Below are positions 8,466 to 23,687 of a stretch of 35,137 bases of DNA, piece by piece. The stretch comes from Planctomycetia bacterium (GTDB lineage: Bacteria > Planctomycetota > Planctomycetia > Pirellulales > JALHLM01). Location of the stretch: positions 1 through 35,137 of the forward strand of contig JAWXBP010000243.1 in the NCBI GenBank assembly GCA_034440135.1. Reading direction: 5' to 3'. Under the pieces are notes generated by a model. The model worked only from the letters and a program-made list of their open reading frames with translations. It searched no databases and was not told the DNA's origin. Each line of letters begins with the position of its first letter. Within the stretch, counting starts at the first letter, position 1. Both the position numbers and the translations under genes were made by a program.

Positions 8466-9866
8466 ATGAATTCCCGAATGTTGATTGCCCCTCTGGCCTT
8501 CGTTGGTTTGTTGTTCTGCAATACGCCGCTTCGCGCCGAGCTCCAAGTCGGTTTCGCTGAGCGCGAGATCACGCCGGACATTTCCAAGCCGGTCTACATC
8601 GCCGGGTATGGGCAGAACCGCGTGGCGACGGCGGTTCACGATCCTCTGTTTGCTCGCGCGGTCGTGCTCGACGACGGGGAACGCAAGATCGCGCTCGTGT
8701 GCGTCGACTTGGTGGGCCTGCAACTTCCCGAGGTGCGGCGGATTCGGGCGGAGTTGAAGGACTTCGCCTACGTGATGGTTTCCAGCACGCATAATCACGA
8801 AGGTCCGGACGTGATCGGCATTTGGGGACCGTCGCCGGTGACGAGCGGCGTCGATCAAAAATATCTTTCGCAGGTCGTCGCGACCTGTGCGGCGGCCGTA
8901 GAAGATGCCGCAAAGAACTTGGCGCCCGCCGACGCCTACTTCGGCACGGCCAAGGATCATTCCCTGTTGCGCGATTCGCGGCAACCGGTCGTCTACGACG
9001 ACATCGTTCGAGTGCTCCGCTTCAACAAACCTGGCACACAAGAACCGTTTGGCATTCTGGTGCAGATCAACAATCATCCGGAATCGCTCGGCAGCGACAA
9101 CACGCAAATCACCGCCGACTTTCCGCACGCCACGGTCGCGGCGCTCAAGGAAAAGTATCATTGCCAGGTCGCCTATTTCACCGGCACGGTCGGAGGGTTG
9201 ATGAGCAACCCGCCGGAAATTCCGGGCCCCGACGGCAAACCGATGCACGACGAGAACTTCGAGTTCGCCGAATACTACGGTCGCCAATTCGCCAAGATCG
9301 CCGCACAAGCGATTGATAGCGCGACGTTGACAGAACTAACGCCCTTCGCCGTCGCCGCGAAGACGATCACCGCGCCGCTGGAAAACCCCGGCTATCAGAT
9401 GGCCCGCAAGATCGGCGTATTGCCGCGAGCCGGACGTGTCTGGACCGGTGATTTCGAAACGGTCGGCGACCTGGCCGCTGACGATACGCCCGCCGACAAG
9501 CTCGCGATCGAAACCGAAATCGCCTGCCTGCGATTGGGTGAAGTTCACGTGGCTTGTATCCCCGGGGAGATCTATCCCGAGTTGGTTTATGGTCAGTATC
9601 AGGATCCTGTCGATCCCGGCGCCGACTACCCCGATGCGGCGTTGGAACCGCATGTAATGCAAACCTTGCCTGGCGAAAAGAAGATGCTGATCGGCCTCGC
9701 CAACGACGAGATCGGCTACATCATCCCGCGCCGGCAATGGGATCACATCCCGCCGTTCGCGTACGGCCGCGATAAATCGCAATACGGCGAAATCAACAGT
9801 TGCGGTTCGGAAATCGCGCCGATCCTGATGAAGGCCCTCGAAAACCGCGTCCGGGAATTGAAGTAA
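8466..9866 (+). CDS. Neutral/alkaline non-lysosomal ceramidase-like protein
   Basis: About 466 residues with an N-terminal signal peptide (MLIAPLAFVGLLFC, cleavage near LRAE). The body starts with QVGFAEREITPDISKPVYIAGYG, as in the N-terminal domain of neutral ceramidases, and has the expected VMVSSTHNHEGPD metal-site block, INNHPES, and YFTGTVGGLMS. The family's metal ligands are histidines in such motifs; known members hydrolyse the amide bond of ceramides. Many planctomycete paralogues exist and their substrates are untested, so a ceramide substrate is inference. An in-frame TTG at 8403 would add 21 residues with no signal character; ATG 8466 or 8478 fits better, though neither has a strong ribosome binding site. 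The Nudix gene follows within 6 bases. Confidence 0.85.
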   Translation: MNSRMLIAPLAFVGLLFCNTPLRAELQVGFAEREITPDISKPVYIAGYGQNRVATAVHDPLFARAVVLDDGERKIALVCVDLVGLQLPEVRRIRAELKDFAYVMVSSTHNHEGPDVIGIWGPSPVTSGVDQKYLSQVVATCAAAVEDAAKNLAPADAYFGTAKDHSLLRDSRQPVVYDDIVRVLRFNKPGTQEPFGILVQINNHPESLGSDNTQITADFPHATVAALKEKYHCQVAYFTGTVGGLMSNPPEIPGPDGKPMHDENFEFAEYYGRQFAKIAAQAIDSATLTELTPFAVAAKTITAPLENPGYQMARKIGVLPRAGRVWTGDFETVGDLAADDTPADKLAIETEIACLRLGEVHVACIPGEIYPELVYGQYQDPVDPGADYPDAALEPHVMQTLPGEKKMLIGLANDEIGYIIPRRQWDHIPPFAYGRDKSQYGEINSCGSEIAPILMKALENRVRELK

Positions 9867-10371: not shown

Positions 10372-10479
10372 TTCTGTAGCCGAGGTCTGTGACCTCGGTG
10401 GAGAGGACATCGAATACAGATCCCACGTCGAAGGGTAGACGACGCCTTCTCCCCGAGGTCACAGACCTCGGCTACAGAA
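10372..10479. repeat. Inverted repeat with 27-bp perfect arms
   Basis: Arms 10372-10398 and 10453-10479 are exact reverse complements. Each arm is itself a palindrome (CCGAGGTC-TGT-GACCTCGG), so either one long hairpin or two small ones could form. The right arm contains the TAG stop codon (10472-10474) of the minus-strand gene next door. It sits between two convergent genes, where a two-way terminator would be expected. Confidence 0.75.
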
Positions 10480-10978
10480 ACGAATCCCAGCGCGTCTCCG
10501 GATACGTCCCGTAAAAGCGCTTGATGAAATTGCGGCGCCAGCGTGCGGGGCAATGAGGCTCCCAGCCCCAGCGAGCGGCGAGGCGATCGCTGATGCGGAG
10601 GTTGGCCGCGTCGGAAACGATTGCGTCGATGCCTTTCAATTTCGCAATGGCGTACAGCACCTGCAGCGCGCCGTGAACCGTGGCCAGCGTCGCGTCGCGA
10701 TAACTAACGGCATACTTGAGCGCAACGAAGTTGCTCATCCCGCGCGGCTGATTGTAGTACAGCCAGCAGCGATCGCCCGCTCGATGCCGATGTTGCCACG
10801 CGCCCAGCACGGTCAGGTCCGGCCACGAAACCAGTTTCGGCAACGGCCGCAGCACGATCTGGTGCAAGCGGCCGCCGCGCATTTCAATCACGCCGTAACG
10901 CCGCCGGCGCAGGACATCCGTCTGCGCGTGAAAATCGCGCACGACTTCGAAGGGCGGGGCGAGCGTTAGGCCGGACAC
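10472..10978 (-). CDS. Uncharacterised protein, possibly GNAT-like fold
   Basis: 168 residues; I do not recognise a named family. The start is GTG 10978, supported by GAGGAAAG a few bases upstream. There is no signal peptide or membrane helix. The sequence is rich in Arg and Trp. The end (ISDRLAARWGWEPH, then WRRNFIKRFYGTYP) resembles the C-terminal part of acetyltransferase-like proteins, where a residue block of the type RLYERLGF is usual; this is only a hint. The middle has a YYNQPRG stretch and a hydrophobic helix VHGALQVLYAIAKL. It lies 56 bases from the Rrf2 gene on the same strand, so they may be co-transcribed. The stop codon lies inside an inverted repeat. Confidence 0.65.
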   Translation of the reverse strand: MSGLTLAPPFEVVRDFHAQTDVLRRRRYGVIEMRGGRLHQIVLRPLPKLVSWPDLTVLGAWQHRHRAGDRCWLYYNQPRGMSNFVALKYAVSYRDATLATVHGALQVLYAIAKLKGIDAIVSDAANLRISDRLAARWGWEPHCPARWRRNFIKRFYGTYPETRWDSFL

Positions 10979-11034: not shown

Positions 11035-11499
11035 TTAGTTTTTGATCGCGCTTTCGTCGGCGGCCGGGGCTTTACGTGGAAAGTCGCACAACGGCACGCT
11101 TTCCGAGGGATCGGCGATGACCTCGGCCAGGGTCGAGGACTCGAACGCCCGTTCCACCATTGCCATGGCGTCGTCGAGCCGCTTGTGCAGCGGACAAAGC
11201 CGCACGCCATGGGATGCCAGGCCCAGCGGGCAGGTCCGGATGCGCTGCAGCTTCTCGACAGCGTTGACCACTTCCAGGATGGAGATTTCCTCCGGCCGTT
11301 TCGCCAGCCGAAAGCCACCGTGGAGCCCTCGCTGGGAAGTCACAAGTCCTGCTCGCTGCAGACTTTGCATCACCTTGGATAGGTAGGCCTTGGGGACTCG
11401 CGTGACCTCGGCGATTTCGTCCACGGTGCGAGCGCCGGCCGAATCGTCGGCCAGTAATACGGATGCCCTGAGGGCGTACTCAACGGTTTGGGAGATCAC
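11035..11499 (-). CDS. Rrf2-family transcriptional regulator
   Basis: 154 residues with the classic Rrf2 opening (MISQTVEYALRA), a winged helix with recognition helix KAYLSKVMQSLQRAGL, and the GLHGGFRLAK wing. Known members (IscR, NsrR, RsrR) sense iron-sulfur status, NO or redox through a bound Fe-S cluster. Here only two of the three usual cluster cysteines are in place: Cys90 and Cys102 (CPLHKRLD, with His105). The middle site has His97 and no Cys. A further Cys138 is near the end. GTG 11499 is the only possible start, as a stop codon lies two codons before it. It diverges from the protoglobin gene across 151 bases, so it is likely to control that gene and itself. A possible partner gene lies downstream. 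Confidence 0.9.
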   Translation of the reverse strand: MISQTVEYALRASVLLADDSAGARTVDEIAEVTRVPKAYLSKVMQSLQRAGLVTSQRGLHGGFRLAKRPEEISILEVVNAVEKLQRIRTCPLGLASHGVRLCPLHKRLDDAMAMVERAFESSTLAEVIADPSESVPLCDFPRKAPAADESAIKN

Positions 11500-11650
11500 T
11501 TTTTAGATATCCGGACCTTGACATCCAGTATTTGCATAACCTACCATTGCTCGCGTTACCAATATACCACGATCTCGAAGTCGTGGGACGGACTCGAACT
11601 GGATGCAACGGCCGTTTTGCGGCGGGCGACCAACAAAAGGGACGACGACC
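11500..11650. promoter_or_regulatory. Divergent Rrf2/protoglobin control region
   Basis: This 151-base gap is AT-richer than its surroundings at the Rrf2 side. On the plus strand TTGACA (11518-11523) with TACCAT 18 bases later (11542-11547) could be a promoter for the protoglobin gene. An 18-bp dyad, CACGATCTCGAAGTCGTG (11568-11585, 7 of 9 pairs), lies downstream of it and could be an operator. I found no clear IscR or NsrR consensus site. Confidence 0.4.
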
Positions 11651-12277
11651 ATGCGGCATATCGACGAACCTCGGCTGGAATCCGATCTCGCTTATCGTTT
11701 CGCGTACGTCACCGAATTCATGGGCTTGAACGGCGCCGATATCAAGGCGATCCACGCCTCGGCCGCGCACCTGGCGCCGGTCGTCGCGTCGCTTGTCGAC
11801 GCTGTCTACGACAAACTCGCAACTTACGACGCCACCTGGCGGCACTTCGTCCCGCGTCAGTCCGGCTTTGAAGGAGGCGTCCCCGAGAGCGTCGAAGCCC
11901 TGACGATGGACCACGAGCAGATTCAGTTCCGCAAGGCCCACTTGCAGCGCTACCTGGTTAAATTGGTCACCGGCGCCTATGACGACGCCATGGTCGGTTA
12001 CCTCGACCTGGTCGGCAAGATGCACACGCCCGGCCAAGGGAGCCAGGCGATCAACGTGCCGCTCGTGCAGATGAACGCTCTCTTGGGTTTCGTGGCGGAT
12101 GCGCTGAACGCAACGATCTTCAGCCTCGGCCTCAGCCGCGAAGACGAAACGCGCACGATCCGCGCCTTCAGCAAGTTGCTGTGGGTGCAAAACGATTTGA
12201 TCAACCGCCACTACCAGGCATCCCAGCCATCGTCGCACGCGGGGAACGGTGCGGACCGCATCGCCGTGTCGGTGTAA
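11651..12277 (+). CDS. Protoglobin-domain haem protein
   Basis: About 208 residues; almost the whole length is one protoglobin domain (PF11563), with no attached signalling domain. Family features include the RFAYVTEFMGLNGADI start helix, DHEQIQFRKAHLQRYL, and a LVGKMHTPG block whose His125 corresponds to the proximal haem ligand of globin-coupled sensors and protoglobins. Known protoglobins bind O2, CO and NO in the cytoplasm. ATG 11651 follows an AAGGGA site. It is transcribed away from the Rrf2 regulator and is followed, 86 bases on, by a gene for a secreted protein with one haem c motif. A role in gas sensing or NO handling is an inference. The last 20 residues are polar and probably disordered. 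Confidence 0.85.
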   Translation: MRHIDEPRLESDLAYRFAYVTEFMGLNGADIKAIHASAAHLAPVVASLVDAVYDKLATYDATWRHFVPRQSGFEGGVPESVEALTMDHEQIQFRKAHLQRYLVKLVTGAYDDAMVGYLDLVGKMHTPGQGSQAINVPLVQMNALLGFVADALNATIFSLGLSREDETRTIRAFSKLLWVQNDLINRHYQASQPSSHAGNGADRIAVSV

Positions 12278-12317
12278 GCAGTTGTTTGACGTGGGAGCTT
12301 TCGGCCGGGCCCAATCC

Positions 12318-12351
12318 CACTGAAAACTGAGCACTGAAAACTTCCAACTCC
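12318..12351. repeat. 34-bp dispersed repeat, copy 1
   Basis: This matches 23654-23687 at 32 of 34 positions and contains two ACTGAAAACT units. Its end is 12 bases before the ATG of the next gene. Read on the minus strand it would encode a KFSVLSFQ-like peptide, which explains a spurious antisense frame here. Confidence 0.75.
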
Positions 12352-12363
12352 CCCAAGTTTTCA

Positions 12364-13671
12364 ATGTACGCCTCATCGCTGATTCGCTGGCGCGTTGCCG
12401 CGGCAATCCTGGTCGCCCTGATTGGAACGCGCGCAGCCCGCGCGCAATACGATTTTGAAGGCGCGCCGATCAACTATGCGACCGCGCCGACAGACCAGCC
12501 TGTTTCGCAGTTGATCGAGCGACTGTCGCGGGACGGTGCCTCGCTGAAACGTGAAGGCCGACAGGGCATATTGAAGGCACTGCTGGAAGCCTGGGAGATT
12601 CCCGTCTCCTCGCAGGTCTTGGTGTTCACCAAGACCAGCTTTCAAAGCGAGCGGATTTCGCCGAAGACGCCGCGGGCTCTCTATTTCTCCGACGACGTGT
12701 ATGTCGGCTGGGTTCAAGGCAGTCAACTGCTGGAAGTGACCGCCTATGATCCACAACTGGGGCCGATCTTCTACACCGTCGATCAAGCCGGGTTCGACAA
12801 GCCGGAGTTCTTGCGGCAGAATCACGAATGCACGCAGTGTCACGCTTCTTCGCTCACGCACGGCGCGCCGGGACATATCGTGCGGAGCGTGTACTCGGAC
12901 ATTTCGGGTCATCCCATCCTGCGGAACGGCTCATTTCTGACCGACCACCGCAGCCCTCTTAAGGAACGCTGGGGCGGCTGGTACGTCACTGGCCGGCACG
13001 GGCAACTTCGGCATCTTGGCAATCAGTGGTTTTCCGAGGTCGTGAAGGTCGAAGAGTTGAATCGCGAACCGGGCGCGAACATCACGTCGCTGGACGATCG
13101 CATCGATACGAGCCGCTATTTAACGCCGCATAGTGATATCGTGGCGCTGATGGTGCTCGAACATCAGACGACGGTGCAGAATCAACTCGCTCAAGCCGTC
13201 TACCAAACGCGCTACGCGCTCCGCGACGCAGACGCGATGAACCAGGCGCTCGATCGCCCGGCCGATTTCCAGTCCGAAAGCACGCAACGTCGCATCAACA
13301 ACGCGGCGGAGGCCTTGCTCAAGGTAATACTCCTCGATGGTGAAGCCGCGCTCGGCGACAAGATCGAAGGCACGAGTGGGTTCGCCCAGGAATTCAGCCA
13401 ACGCGGTCCGCGCGACGCACAAGGCCGCTCGCTTCGTGAGCTAGACCTCGAACGACGGCTTTTCAAGTATCCGTGCAGCTATTTGATCTACTCGCGCGGC
13501 GTCATGGAAATGCCGGCCGCCCTTAAAAGCGTGTTCTTCGCGCGGCTTTGGGCCACACTGGACGGCTCTCCCGCCACGGACGATCTGCAGGGCCTGTCGA
13601 TCGCGGACCGGCAGGCAATTCGAGAAATCCTCCGCGAGACGCTGCCGGCGGAGTTGTTGGCGCAGCAGTAG
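12364..13671 (+). CDS. Secreted protein with one CxxCH haem c motif, unknown function
   Basis: 435 residues. The N-terminus is a signal peptide (RWRVAAAILVALIG, cleavage near ARAQ). A single Cys156-x-x-Cys159-His160 motif (HECTQCHASS) should bind one haem c covalently in the periplasm. It is followed by HGAPGHIVRSVYSD. The rest does not look like a small standard cytochrome c: there are about 150 residues before the motif (VLVFTKTSFQSERISPKTPRA, DVYVGWVQGS) and 270 after, mostly helical, with YPCSYLIYSRGVMEMP near the end. I have the impression that similar proteins occur in other planctomycetes and acidobacteria as hypotheticals, but cannot name the family. A dispersed repeat sits just before the ATG. 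It is downstream of the protoglobin gene on the same strand and may belong to the same unit. Confidence 0.75.
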   Translation: MYASSLIRWRVAAAILVALIGTRAARAQYDFEGAPINYATAPTDQPVSQLIERLSRDGASLKREGRQGILKALLEAWEIPVSSQVLVFTKTSFQSERISPKTPRALYFSDDVYVGWVQGSQLLEVTAYDPQLGPIFYTVDQAGFDKPEFLRQNHECTQCHASSLTHGAPGHIVRSVYSDISGHPILRNGSFLTDHRSPLKERWGGWYVTGRHGQLRHLGNQWFSEVVKVEELNREPGANITSLDDRIDTSRYLTPHSDIVALMVLEHQTTVQNQLAQAVYQTRYALRDADAMNQALDRPADFQSESTQRRINNAAEALLKVILLDGEAALGDKIEGTSGFAQEFSQRGPRDAQGRSLRELDLERRLFKYPCSYLIYSRGVMEMPAALKSVFFARLWATLDGSPATDDLQGLSIADRQAIREILRETLPAELLAQQ

Positions 13672-13683
13672 TCGCTGAGCGCC

Positions 13684-15207
13684 TTAATTCTCTTCGCCCA
13701 GCGTCACGGTCTTCACAAATTCCTCGCCGTTTCGCTGTGCGCGAACCTCCGCCTTTTCGCCGGCTTTCATGGTGCGGATCATGGCCCGCAGCTGCTCAAA
13801 GTTGCCGACCGGCGCGCCGTTGTAGTGCGTGATTAAATCGTCCACGTGGAAGCCGGCTTCGGCCGCCGCCATGCCTGGCTGGACATCTTGCAGTTCGCAA
13901 CCGAGCGGACTTTCGGTGCCGATCACGCCCAGGAAACCACCCTGGCGATGGTCCACGCGCACCGTCGAGTGTGCGGCGATGAAGGCGTCGGCCGCTGCCA
14001 TCGTCACTTCGGTGCCGTACAAGCTGAGCATGCTTAAGTTGGGGTTCTCACCGAGTTTGGCCAAACAGGTATCATCCACCGGGCAGTATTTCACATAAAG
14101 CATCCGCAGCCGCGGCAGCGATTCCACGTGCTTCAACCCGGCGCTGGTAATCGGCAAGTGCTTGAGTTCTACGCCCATCAAGGTGTTCAGCCCCGCAAAC
14201 AGTTGCATCCCGTCGTCGTGAATGTCGAGGCCGTCCAATCGGACGGTTTCCAAACTCTTCAAGGCAACCAATGGAGCCAGTCCGGCGCCGGTGACGGGCA
14301 GTTTCTTGAGTTCCAGACTTTTCAGACCGGTCAATTCGCTGAGTGGTTTGAGTCCTGCGTCACTGATGGCCAGGCCCTCAAGTTGGAGCGTCTCCAAATC
14401 CTTGAGCGCCACGATGTGCGCCAGGCCGGCGTCGGTGATGGCGTTGTTGCGGAGGTTCAGCAACTCGAGTCGCGGATGAGCCGAGACGACGGACATCGAT
14501 GCGTCCGTCAACGGCACGTTTTCCGCCTGGAGATAAAGCAGATTCGGCAGTTGCTTGACGTGAGCAAAGCCGGCGTCCGTGAGTTTCGTGTTCAACAGCC
14601 TCAAGTGGCGCAGCTGCGTTCGCGGGCCGAAAAACGCGAACGCCTCGTCGCCCAACGTCACGCCGTCGCAAACGAGTGCGGTCATCTCGGGGAACCAACG
14701 CAGCAACTGGAGGTCTTCGTCCGTTCCTTTCCAGGTTTCTCCGGAAATTTGCACCGAGATCAAATCGGCTCCCTGCATCGGGACCGTCGCGCCGAGTTCT
14801 TCCAAGCGCGCGAGCGCAGCGTCGCGCCGCATTTCCATGCGGCCGCGCAAGGCCGTCTTCGCGCGGCCCACGATTCGTGGCTCCCCCGATTCCGCGAGGC
14901 CGTCGAGCGCCTGTTCCGCGGCATCGGCCGTCGCCACGTCCGTGGATAGCGCCAATTGCCCGAGGACCGAAATCGCCCGCGCGCTGGTTTCCAGTTCCGG
15001 CGCGCGCGCCGCTTCGACCAGCAATGGAATCGCCACCGGCCCGGCCTCGACTAACGCGGCGCTGGCTTGCTCCCGCACGAAATAGTCATCGGCGTCCAAC
15101 TCGCGAATCCGCGCGGCGAGGGCGATCCCATCAACGGCAGGTTCATTCGAGCGCGCACTTGGCGCGATCAGCAACGCCAGCCCAATGCTCAACAATAACG
15201 GTTTCAT
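13684..15207 (-). CDS. Leucine-rich-repeat protein with C-terminal PDZ domain
   Basis: About 507 residues from ATG 15207, which begins a signal peptide (MKPLLLSIGLALLIAP). An in-frame upstream start at 15249 would bury it and is rejected. Residues about 25-130 are helical with HEAT-like repeats (ELDADDYFVREQASAALVEA, VAIPLLVEAAR). Residues about 170-400 hold leucine-rich repeats of the bacterial kind, with units such as LRLLNTKLTDAGFAHV and LNLRNNAITDAGLAHI, roughly nine in number. The last 100 residues (FLGVIGTESPLGCELQDVQPG, DDLITHYNGAPVGNFEQL) form a PDZ domain. Such proteins are usually envelope-located scaffolds for protein contacts; no catalytic residues are seen. The histidine-kinase gene starts upstream on the same strand, separated by 131 bases. 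Confidence 0.85.
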   Translation of the reverse strand: MKPLLLSIGLALLIAPSARSNEPAVDGIALAARIRELDADDYFVREQASAALVEAGPVAIPLLVEAARAPELETSARAISVLGQLALSTDVATADAAEQALDGLAESGEPRIVGRAKTALRGRMEMRRDAALARLEELGATVPMQGADLISVQISGETWKGTDEDLQLLRWFPEMTALVCDGVTLGDEAFAFFGPRTQLRHLRLLNTKLTDAGFAHVKQLPNLLYLQAENVPLTDASMSVVSAHPRLELLNLRNNAITDAGLAHIVALKDLETLQLEGLAISDAGLKPLSELTGLKSLELKKLPVTGAGLAPLVALKSLETVRLDGLDIHDDGMQLFAGLNTLMGVELKHLPITSAGLKHVESLPRLRMLYVKYCPVDDTCLAKLGENPNLSMLSLYGTEVTMAAADAFIAAHSTVRVDHRQGGFLGVIGTESPLGCELQDVQPGMAAAEAGFHVDDLITHYNGAPVGNFEQLRAMIRTMKAGEKAEVRAQRNGEEFVKTVTLGEEN

Positions 15208-15338
15208 CGTGCGACCCAGTTCGATGATTCGTTCGCTGTACACTCTCAAGTCTATCCAATCCCCACCAAACCAACACGCTCTTCGAGTTCCCTCTCTCCG
15301 CCGCGTCTCTGCGCCTCCGCGCTTCCCCCCGCGCAGTG

Positions 15339-23653: not shown

Positions 23654-23687
23654 CACTGAAAACTGAACACTGAAAACTTCAAACTCC
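23654..23687. repeat. 34-bp dispersed repeat, copy 2
   Basis: This matches 12318-12351 at 32 of 34 positions. It ends 7 bases before the ATG of the ATPase gene, so the C-rich tail of the repeat takes the place of a normal ribosome binding site. Confidence 0.75.

Follow-up and report, generated by a model that had tools for sequence, protein, structure and literature searches.

A planctomycete locus of an Rrf2 regulator, a stand-alone protoglobin and a secreted haem c protein as the probable core of a nitric oxide stress regulon

The closest described systems include that of NsrR, whose published core regulon comprises hmp, hcp, dnrN (ytfE), nnrS, and norB (PMC1274295). The cluster cysteines of ScNsrR are residues 93, 99, and 105, and the acid/arginine pair of NsrR is Asp8 and Arg12 (PMC5411485). 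Protoglobins are part of the sensor-globin lineage (PMC4020757); even the best-studied of them is described as having an unknown biological role (PMC3680402). Cytochrome c'-β binds NO, and a role in NO sequestering has been proposed for it (PMC6427953). Our literature search found no paper joining a protoglobin with an Rrf2 protein and none that describes NO regulation through Rrf2 proteins in Planctomycetes. The locus described here supplies a physiological setting for protoglobins, together with a testable operator and a predicted regulon whose members by operator or adjacency (globin, RIC, Hcp, NnrS, and qNOR) match the NsrR target set. It also gives a first functional lead for a haem c family of hundreds of members that is unnamed in the databases searched.

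The window (the whole stretch of 35,137 nucleotides that was analysed) is contig C243 of a 7.3-Mb assembly in 534 contigs, referred to as its own genome (G000). Table 1 lists the features of the locus; we label the secreted protein with one CxxCH motif CYT. The initial annotation placed an Rrf2 gene divergent from a stand-alone protoglobin over 151 bases, and the open reading frames and Pfam matches confirm this (gap 11500-11650, with the globin start set at ATG 11651 as in the relatives). Its secreted one-CxxCH protein 3' of the globin on the same strand was likewise borne out by the open reading frame, the single CTQCH, and a signal-peptide-like N-terminus. A convergent LRR-PDZ gene (13684-15249) directly follows CYT and in our sample is common only to the same-genus genome. 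As this gene and that at 10472-10978 are shared only with that genome in the sample, neither is counted as a part of the locus. The sulfatase, DUF1501-type, and PQQ-like neighbours at some loci are common planctomycete genes and were judged unrelated.

Table 1. Positions of the genes and sequence elements of the locus in the window.
Feature	Position	Strand	Basis
Rrf2-family transcription factor	11035..11499	-	PF02082 4.6e-30; invariant residues, 16 relatives
Protoglobin, stand-alone, 208 aa	11651..12277	+	PF11563 9.3e-37; H125 invariant, 16 relatives
CYT, secreted, 435 aa, one haem c motif CTQCH	12364..13671	+	no Pfam/NCBIfam/PDB relative; model pLDDT 92
Operator, 14-bp inverted repeat, GGACCTTGACATCC on + / GGATGTCAAGGTCC on -	11513..11526	.	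conserved 5' of Rrf2 genes in Rrf2/globin pairs
-35 box TTGACA, globin promoter, within operator	11518..11523	+	
-10 box TACCAT, 18-bp spacer, 10/12 consensus matches	11542..11547	+	
Genome-wide intergenic repeat copy, between globin and CYT	12320..12342	+	142 genome matches, 0 control

The neighbourhood was mapped over about 8 kb on each side in relatives, and the full three-gene layout recurs in four genomes (G001, G046, G085, and G090) and four records (L133, L157, L160, and L187), which comprise a genome of the same genus, three further genomes from the order, and four named records. Globin is followed by CYT in five genomes (G000, G001, G014, G029, and G046). Among 57 genomes, CYT is present in 29 and globin in 20; Rrf2 is divergent from globin in 12 of the 20 genomes with globin in the first sample of relatives and, overall, at about half of the related protoglobin genes. 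The phylum sample has globin in 33 of 294 genomes, with a divergent Rrf2 at all of the best 15 loci and with Hcp then globin on one strand at two further loci (L280 and L282); this set overlaps in part with that of the relatives and the counts are not to be summed. Rrf2 faces CYT without globin in three genomes (L066, L070, and L072), and an Rrf2-family gene lies in the fetched flank of 27 of 80 named CYT loci. The layouts vary between Rrf2/globin alone, Rrf2/CYT alone, globin-CYT-qNOR, Hcp-globin, and the full set. The three-gene unit of the initial annotation is real; it is one of these several layouts and the most compact form of a larger, predicted regulon.

The Rrf2 protein belongs to the Rrf2 superfamily (104.9 bits against the PF02082 winged-helix domain, cut-off 30). 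It carries the signature CPLGL-x2-HG-x2-LCPLH, its loop cysteines C90 and C102 and the more distant C138 are invariant, and E7 (Asp in one relative) and R11 occupy the positions of the NsrR acid/arginine pair. These residues make an Fe-S type of regulator plausible, in which E7 could possibly be an acidic ligand to the predicted cluster. Against the curated NCBIfam NsrR model, the protein scores 56.5 bits, far under the cut-off of 182, and the three close cluster cysteines of NsrR are absent, cysteines being found instead at 90, 102, and 138. Among PDB sequences, the top match is an RsrR-type Rrf2 regulator (6y45/6hsd, E 1e-11), with which C90 and C102 align better than with NsrR. The best reading is of a putative repressor with NsrR-like targets and a different cysteine spacing and operator that controls an NO stress regulon; we predict that it works like NsrR, without naming it NsrR.

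A conserved inverted repeat lies 5' of the Rrf2 genes, with GGATGTCRACATCC as its best form and often with two copies about 44 bp apart. We found no description of this operator sequence. A weight matrix built from the Rrf2-upstream sites alone picks out strong sites at globin genes that lack an Rrf2 (L064 32.8, L068 27.9, L087 24.6, and L094 29.6) and at unlinked CYT genes (L055, L058, L059, L062, and L074), weaker sites at NnrS (L057 and L059), and also the divergent Hcp/globin and the RIC promoters. Counted as GGAYN6RTCC within 350 nt upstream of a gene, the motif is present at 18 of 22 globin, 22 of 28 Rrf2, and 18 of 105 CYT genes versus a background of 70 of 3386 (2.1%). The enrichment for CYT is 8 times background (binomial p 7e-12; globin p 3e-27), although related genomes are not independent and the p-values therefore overstate the significance. 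Most of the 18 operator-bearing CYT genes have no Rrf2 gene upstream. Since the other 87 lack the GGAY operator and only about a third of the named CYT loci have an Rrf2-family gene, other control must exist. A stricter 16-mer gave 19 sites in 97 genomes versus one for the control, 13 of them at Rrf2/globin or Hcp/globin. Two exact operator-like matches (L223 and L230, site at 1500; G031 and G087) are near genes that by eye resemble those of type VI secretion and are probably due to chance.

The regulators differ in the recognition-helix region, one subtype having VPxxYL-S/A and the other VPRRYL-H/T. GGAY-type sites are found only with the YL-S/A subtype (28 cases) and TRYATGTCAA-type sites only with RR-YL-H/T (five cases). 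This covariation supports Rrf2 as the protein that reads the site, although the relatives are not independent.

In its own genome, the window operator is the sole exact match to the pattern. Near matches number 22 versus 4 for the control, and only the window site and one located 150 bp upstream of a ScdA/YtfE gene (RIC; ScdA_N plus hemerythrin) are both high-scoring and intergenic, the other 20 lying in open reading frames or scoring low. A stricter promoter form leaves five sites, these two included. The qNOR gene of this genome has no operator. One contig (G000:C514; L207 5890-8112 and 19049-19783) holds the only full-length qNOR found there and the operator-bearing RIC, about 11 kb apart.

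The operator contains TTGACA directed at the target gene, and at most sites a -10-like hexamer follows 16-18 bp on (mean match 3.9 of 6 versus 3.0 for shuffled sequence); the pair in the window scores as the most promoter-like site in its region. An operator that covers the -35 box fits repression, and the conservation of TTGACA within the motif may in part reflect the promoter alone. Between globin and CYT, no terminator was found. This gap holds a copy of the repeat CTGAAAACTGAACACTGAAAACT, which is also present at 23656-23678 and often forms inverted pairs about 20 bp apart; its matches across the assembly were counted at up to two mismatches, the control being the reversed sequence. The presence of a genome-wide repeat at this point makes co-transcription of the two genes uncertain.

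CYT has no PDB relative and no match in Pfam at a threshold of 0.1, and its NCBIfam result is a non-significant line alone; a profile of the family found nothing credible among PDB sequences. It carries both marks of a c-type cytochrome, a CxxCH motif and an export signal, the latter judged by eye. The motif (mature residues 129-133) is invariant in 53 relatives. By their record titles, relatives of CYT come from Planctomycetota, Acidobacteria, and Hydrogenedentota; the culturable species Lacipirellula limnantheis and Thalassoglobus neptunius are among the carriers. Further invariant residues are a GGW motif, H190, and H240 (in mature numbering, the last of them within a long helix), from which CYT is possibly more than a simple electron carrier. 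The structural model is confident, yet no solved fold matches it well: the whole model gave no PDB match with Foldseek, and in a second comparison (VIA), unrelated chains reached Z 3.4 at most and P460 2.6. The N-terminal 162 residues modelled alone (pLDDT 82) gave no Foldseek match under E 0.001. In the other comparison, cytochromes c'-β and P460 make up most of the 16 best rows with nearly whole chains aligned, at Z 3.5-3.8 and 3.5-4.2 Å over 89-96 residues, values that PNP oxidases tie. Membership of PF16694 was rejected (no significant match among 53 members, one of them reaching E 0.3), as was sequence kinship to P460 or c'-β, since the profile comparison aligns only CxxCH. The modelled N-terminal domain thus weakly resembles c'-β/P460 in fold and not in sequence, and NO sequestering by analogy with c'-β would suit CYT, a suggestion we offer as a lead only. 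Judged from its sequence, CYT represents an undescribed family of predicted exported c-haem proteins.

Elsewhere, the quinol NO reductase qNOR (NorB cytochrome-c-like domain plus COX1) adjoins CYT at six loci, two of which also have an adjoining NnrS, and in genome G014 globin, CYT, and qNOR stand in a row with an operator in front. An NsrR-like Rrf2 adjoins CYT at L067 and L077 (where NsrR is the best non-superfamily model, below cut-off) and in four named records. At L067, a Tll0287-like (PF11845) gene (9005-9532) lies between CYT and the NsrR-like gene; one CYT member matches PF11845 weakly (E 0.053). Hcp adjoins the globin at five loci (L091, L093, L094, L280, and L282), and at L066 a second Rrf2 stands opposite a gene with a hemerythrin domain that is probably RIC-like. 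Globin or qNOR is present in 26 of 29 genomes with CYT versus 9 of 28 without (Fisher 8e-6), and qNOR alone in 17 of 29 versus 4 of 28 (p 6e-4). CYT and globin co-occur as well (p 0.008); globin and qNOR do not do so beyond chance in the 57 genomes. One reading is that globin and qNOR are alternatives to each other and that CYT is of use in any setting in which NO is handled.

We suggest, with a probability of roughly 0.7, that the locus is the regulator-linked core of an NO stress regulon. Rrf2, probably with an Fe-S cluster, would bind the GGATGTCRACATCC-type operator over the protoglobin -35 box and repress globin and CYT until NO damages the cluster and releases the protein. The cytoplasmic protoglobin would then bind and oxidise or reduce NO, nitrite, or peroxynitrite, while CYT, exported to the periplasm with covalent haem c, would act on NO outside the membrane by binding it or turning it over. 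This operator would, in other genomes, also serve Hcp, NnrS, and RIC, a protein of Fe-S repair, and CYT is there joined to qNOR. The gas sensing or detoxifying unit of the initial annotation holds up as a gas-response unit, most likely for NO, given the conserved neighbourhood and the links to qNOR, Hcp, NnrS, and RIC; the sensor is more likely to be Rrf2 than the globin. We put forward only tentatively the bolder proposal that a distinct Rrf2 sensor class (CPLGL...LCPLH) runs the NO regulon of Planctomycetota and that CYT is a new exported haem c family with a c'-β/P460-like core that traps or converts periplasmic NO.

Alternatively, Rrf2 could sense redox, O2, or Fe-S status in the manner of RsrR or IscR, with globin and CYT engaged in O2 or peroxide chemistry and the link to NO indirect through Fe-S damage. 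The RsrR-kind closest structure and the alignment of C90 and C102 favour this, and RIC and Hcp also respond to general Fe-S stress. However, the partners (qNOR, Hcp, NnrS, and RIC) are the NO set, no ISC/SUF or NAD genes were recognised at operator sites, and NsrR-like regulators also adjoin CYT; we consider this explanation unlikely. We find it harder still to accept that the unit is Rrf2 and globin only, with CYT a frequent neighbour through shared habitat or descent that has no functional tie to NO. CYT is absent from most globin loci, as is globin from most CYT loci, and the intergenic repeat leaves co-transcription in doubt, but CYT on its own bears the operator well above background and co-occurs with qNOR and globin. 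The initial annotation had raised the point that CYT might have unrelated partners elsewhere. It does have partners of its own in part, and those that can be recognised are mostly Rrf2, NsrR-like, or qNOR and other NO genes; most unlinked copies have no recognised partner.

The protoglobin match to PF11563 covers residues 14-191, and the Pfam search found no output domain. H125, in VGKMH, is the likely proximal haem ligand, assigned by position. No PDB sequence matched the globin, even with a profile of its subfamily. A relay in which the protoglobin is a haem gas sensor that signals to Rrf2, the version of the initial annotation, would suit the sensor-globin lineage but is very improbable. 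The globin is without an output domain, no partner is needed by Rrf2 proteins whose own cluster does the sensing (PMC5411485), and the operators common to the globin and to detoxification genes put the globin in the role of a target.

Compared with known systems, the modelled CYT N-terminal domain has a β-sheet followed by CxxCH, as have cytochrome c'-β and P460 (PMC6427953, PMC11928373), several chains of which are among its best structural matches, although Z is too low to trust and CYT has about 250 further residues. The protoglobin of Methanosarcina acetivorans (PMC4020757) is also stand-alone and has NO, nitrite, and peroxynitrite chemistry in vitro, but in the papers found it has no link to a regulator. 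RsrR of Streptomyces venezuelae (PMC5015018) is the closest solved kind and likewise has a divergent gene and a shared self-linked promoter region; it differs in its 11-3-11 operator and in having no NO detoxification targets. In Legionella, NsrR-glbN (PMC1274295) pairs an Rrf2-family repressor with a single-domain globin, which there is a cyanoglobin with a ferredoxin reductase and no secreted haem protein. The NsrR regulon of E. coli, Neisseria, and Streptomyces (PMC1274295, PMC5411485) has three close cysteines where the present Rrf2 has C-X11-C and a distant C, the operator gATGyAT-N5-ATrCATc where we find GGATGTCRACATCC, and flavohaemoglobin in place of protoglobin, with no counterpart of CYT. 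It shares with this locus an Rrf2-family protein near a globin or NO gene, a palindromic operator, and the targets hcp, ytfE/dnrN, nnrS, norB, and a globin; E7/R11 may be the counterpart of its Asp8/Arg12 acid/arginine pair.
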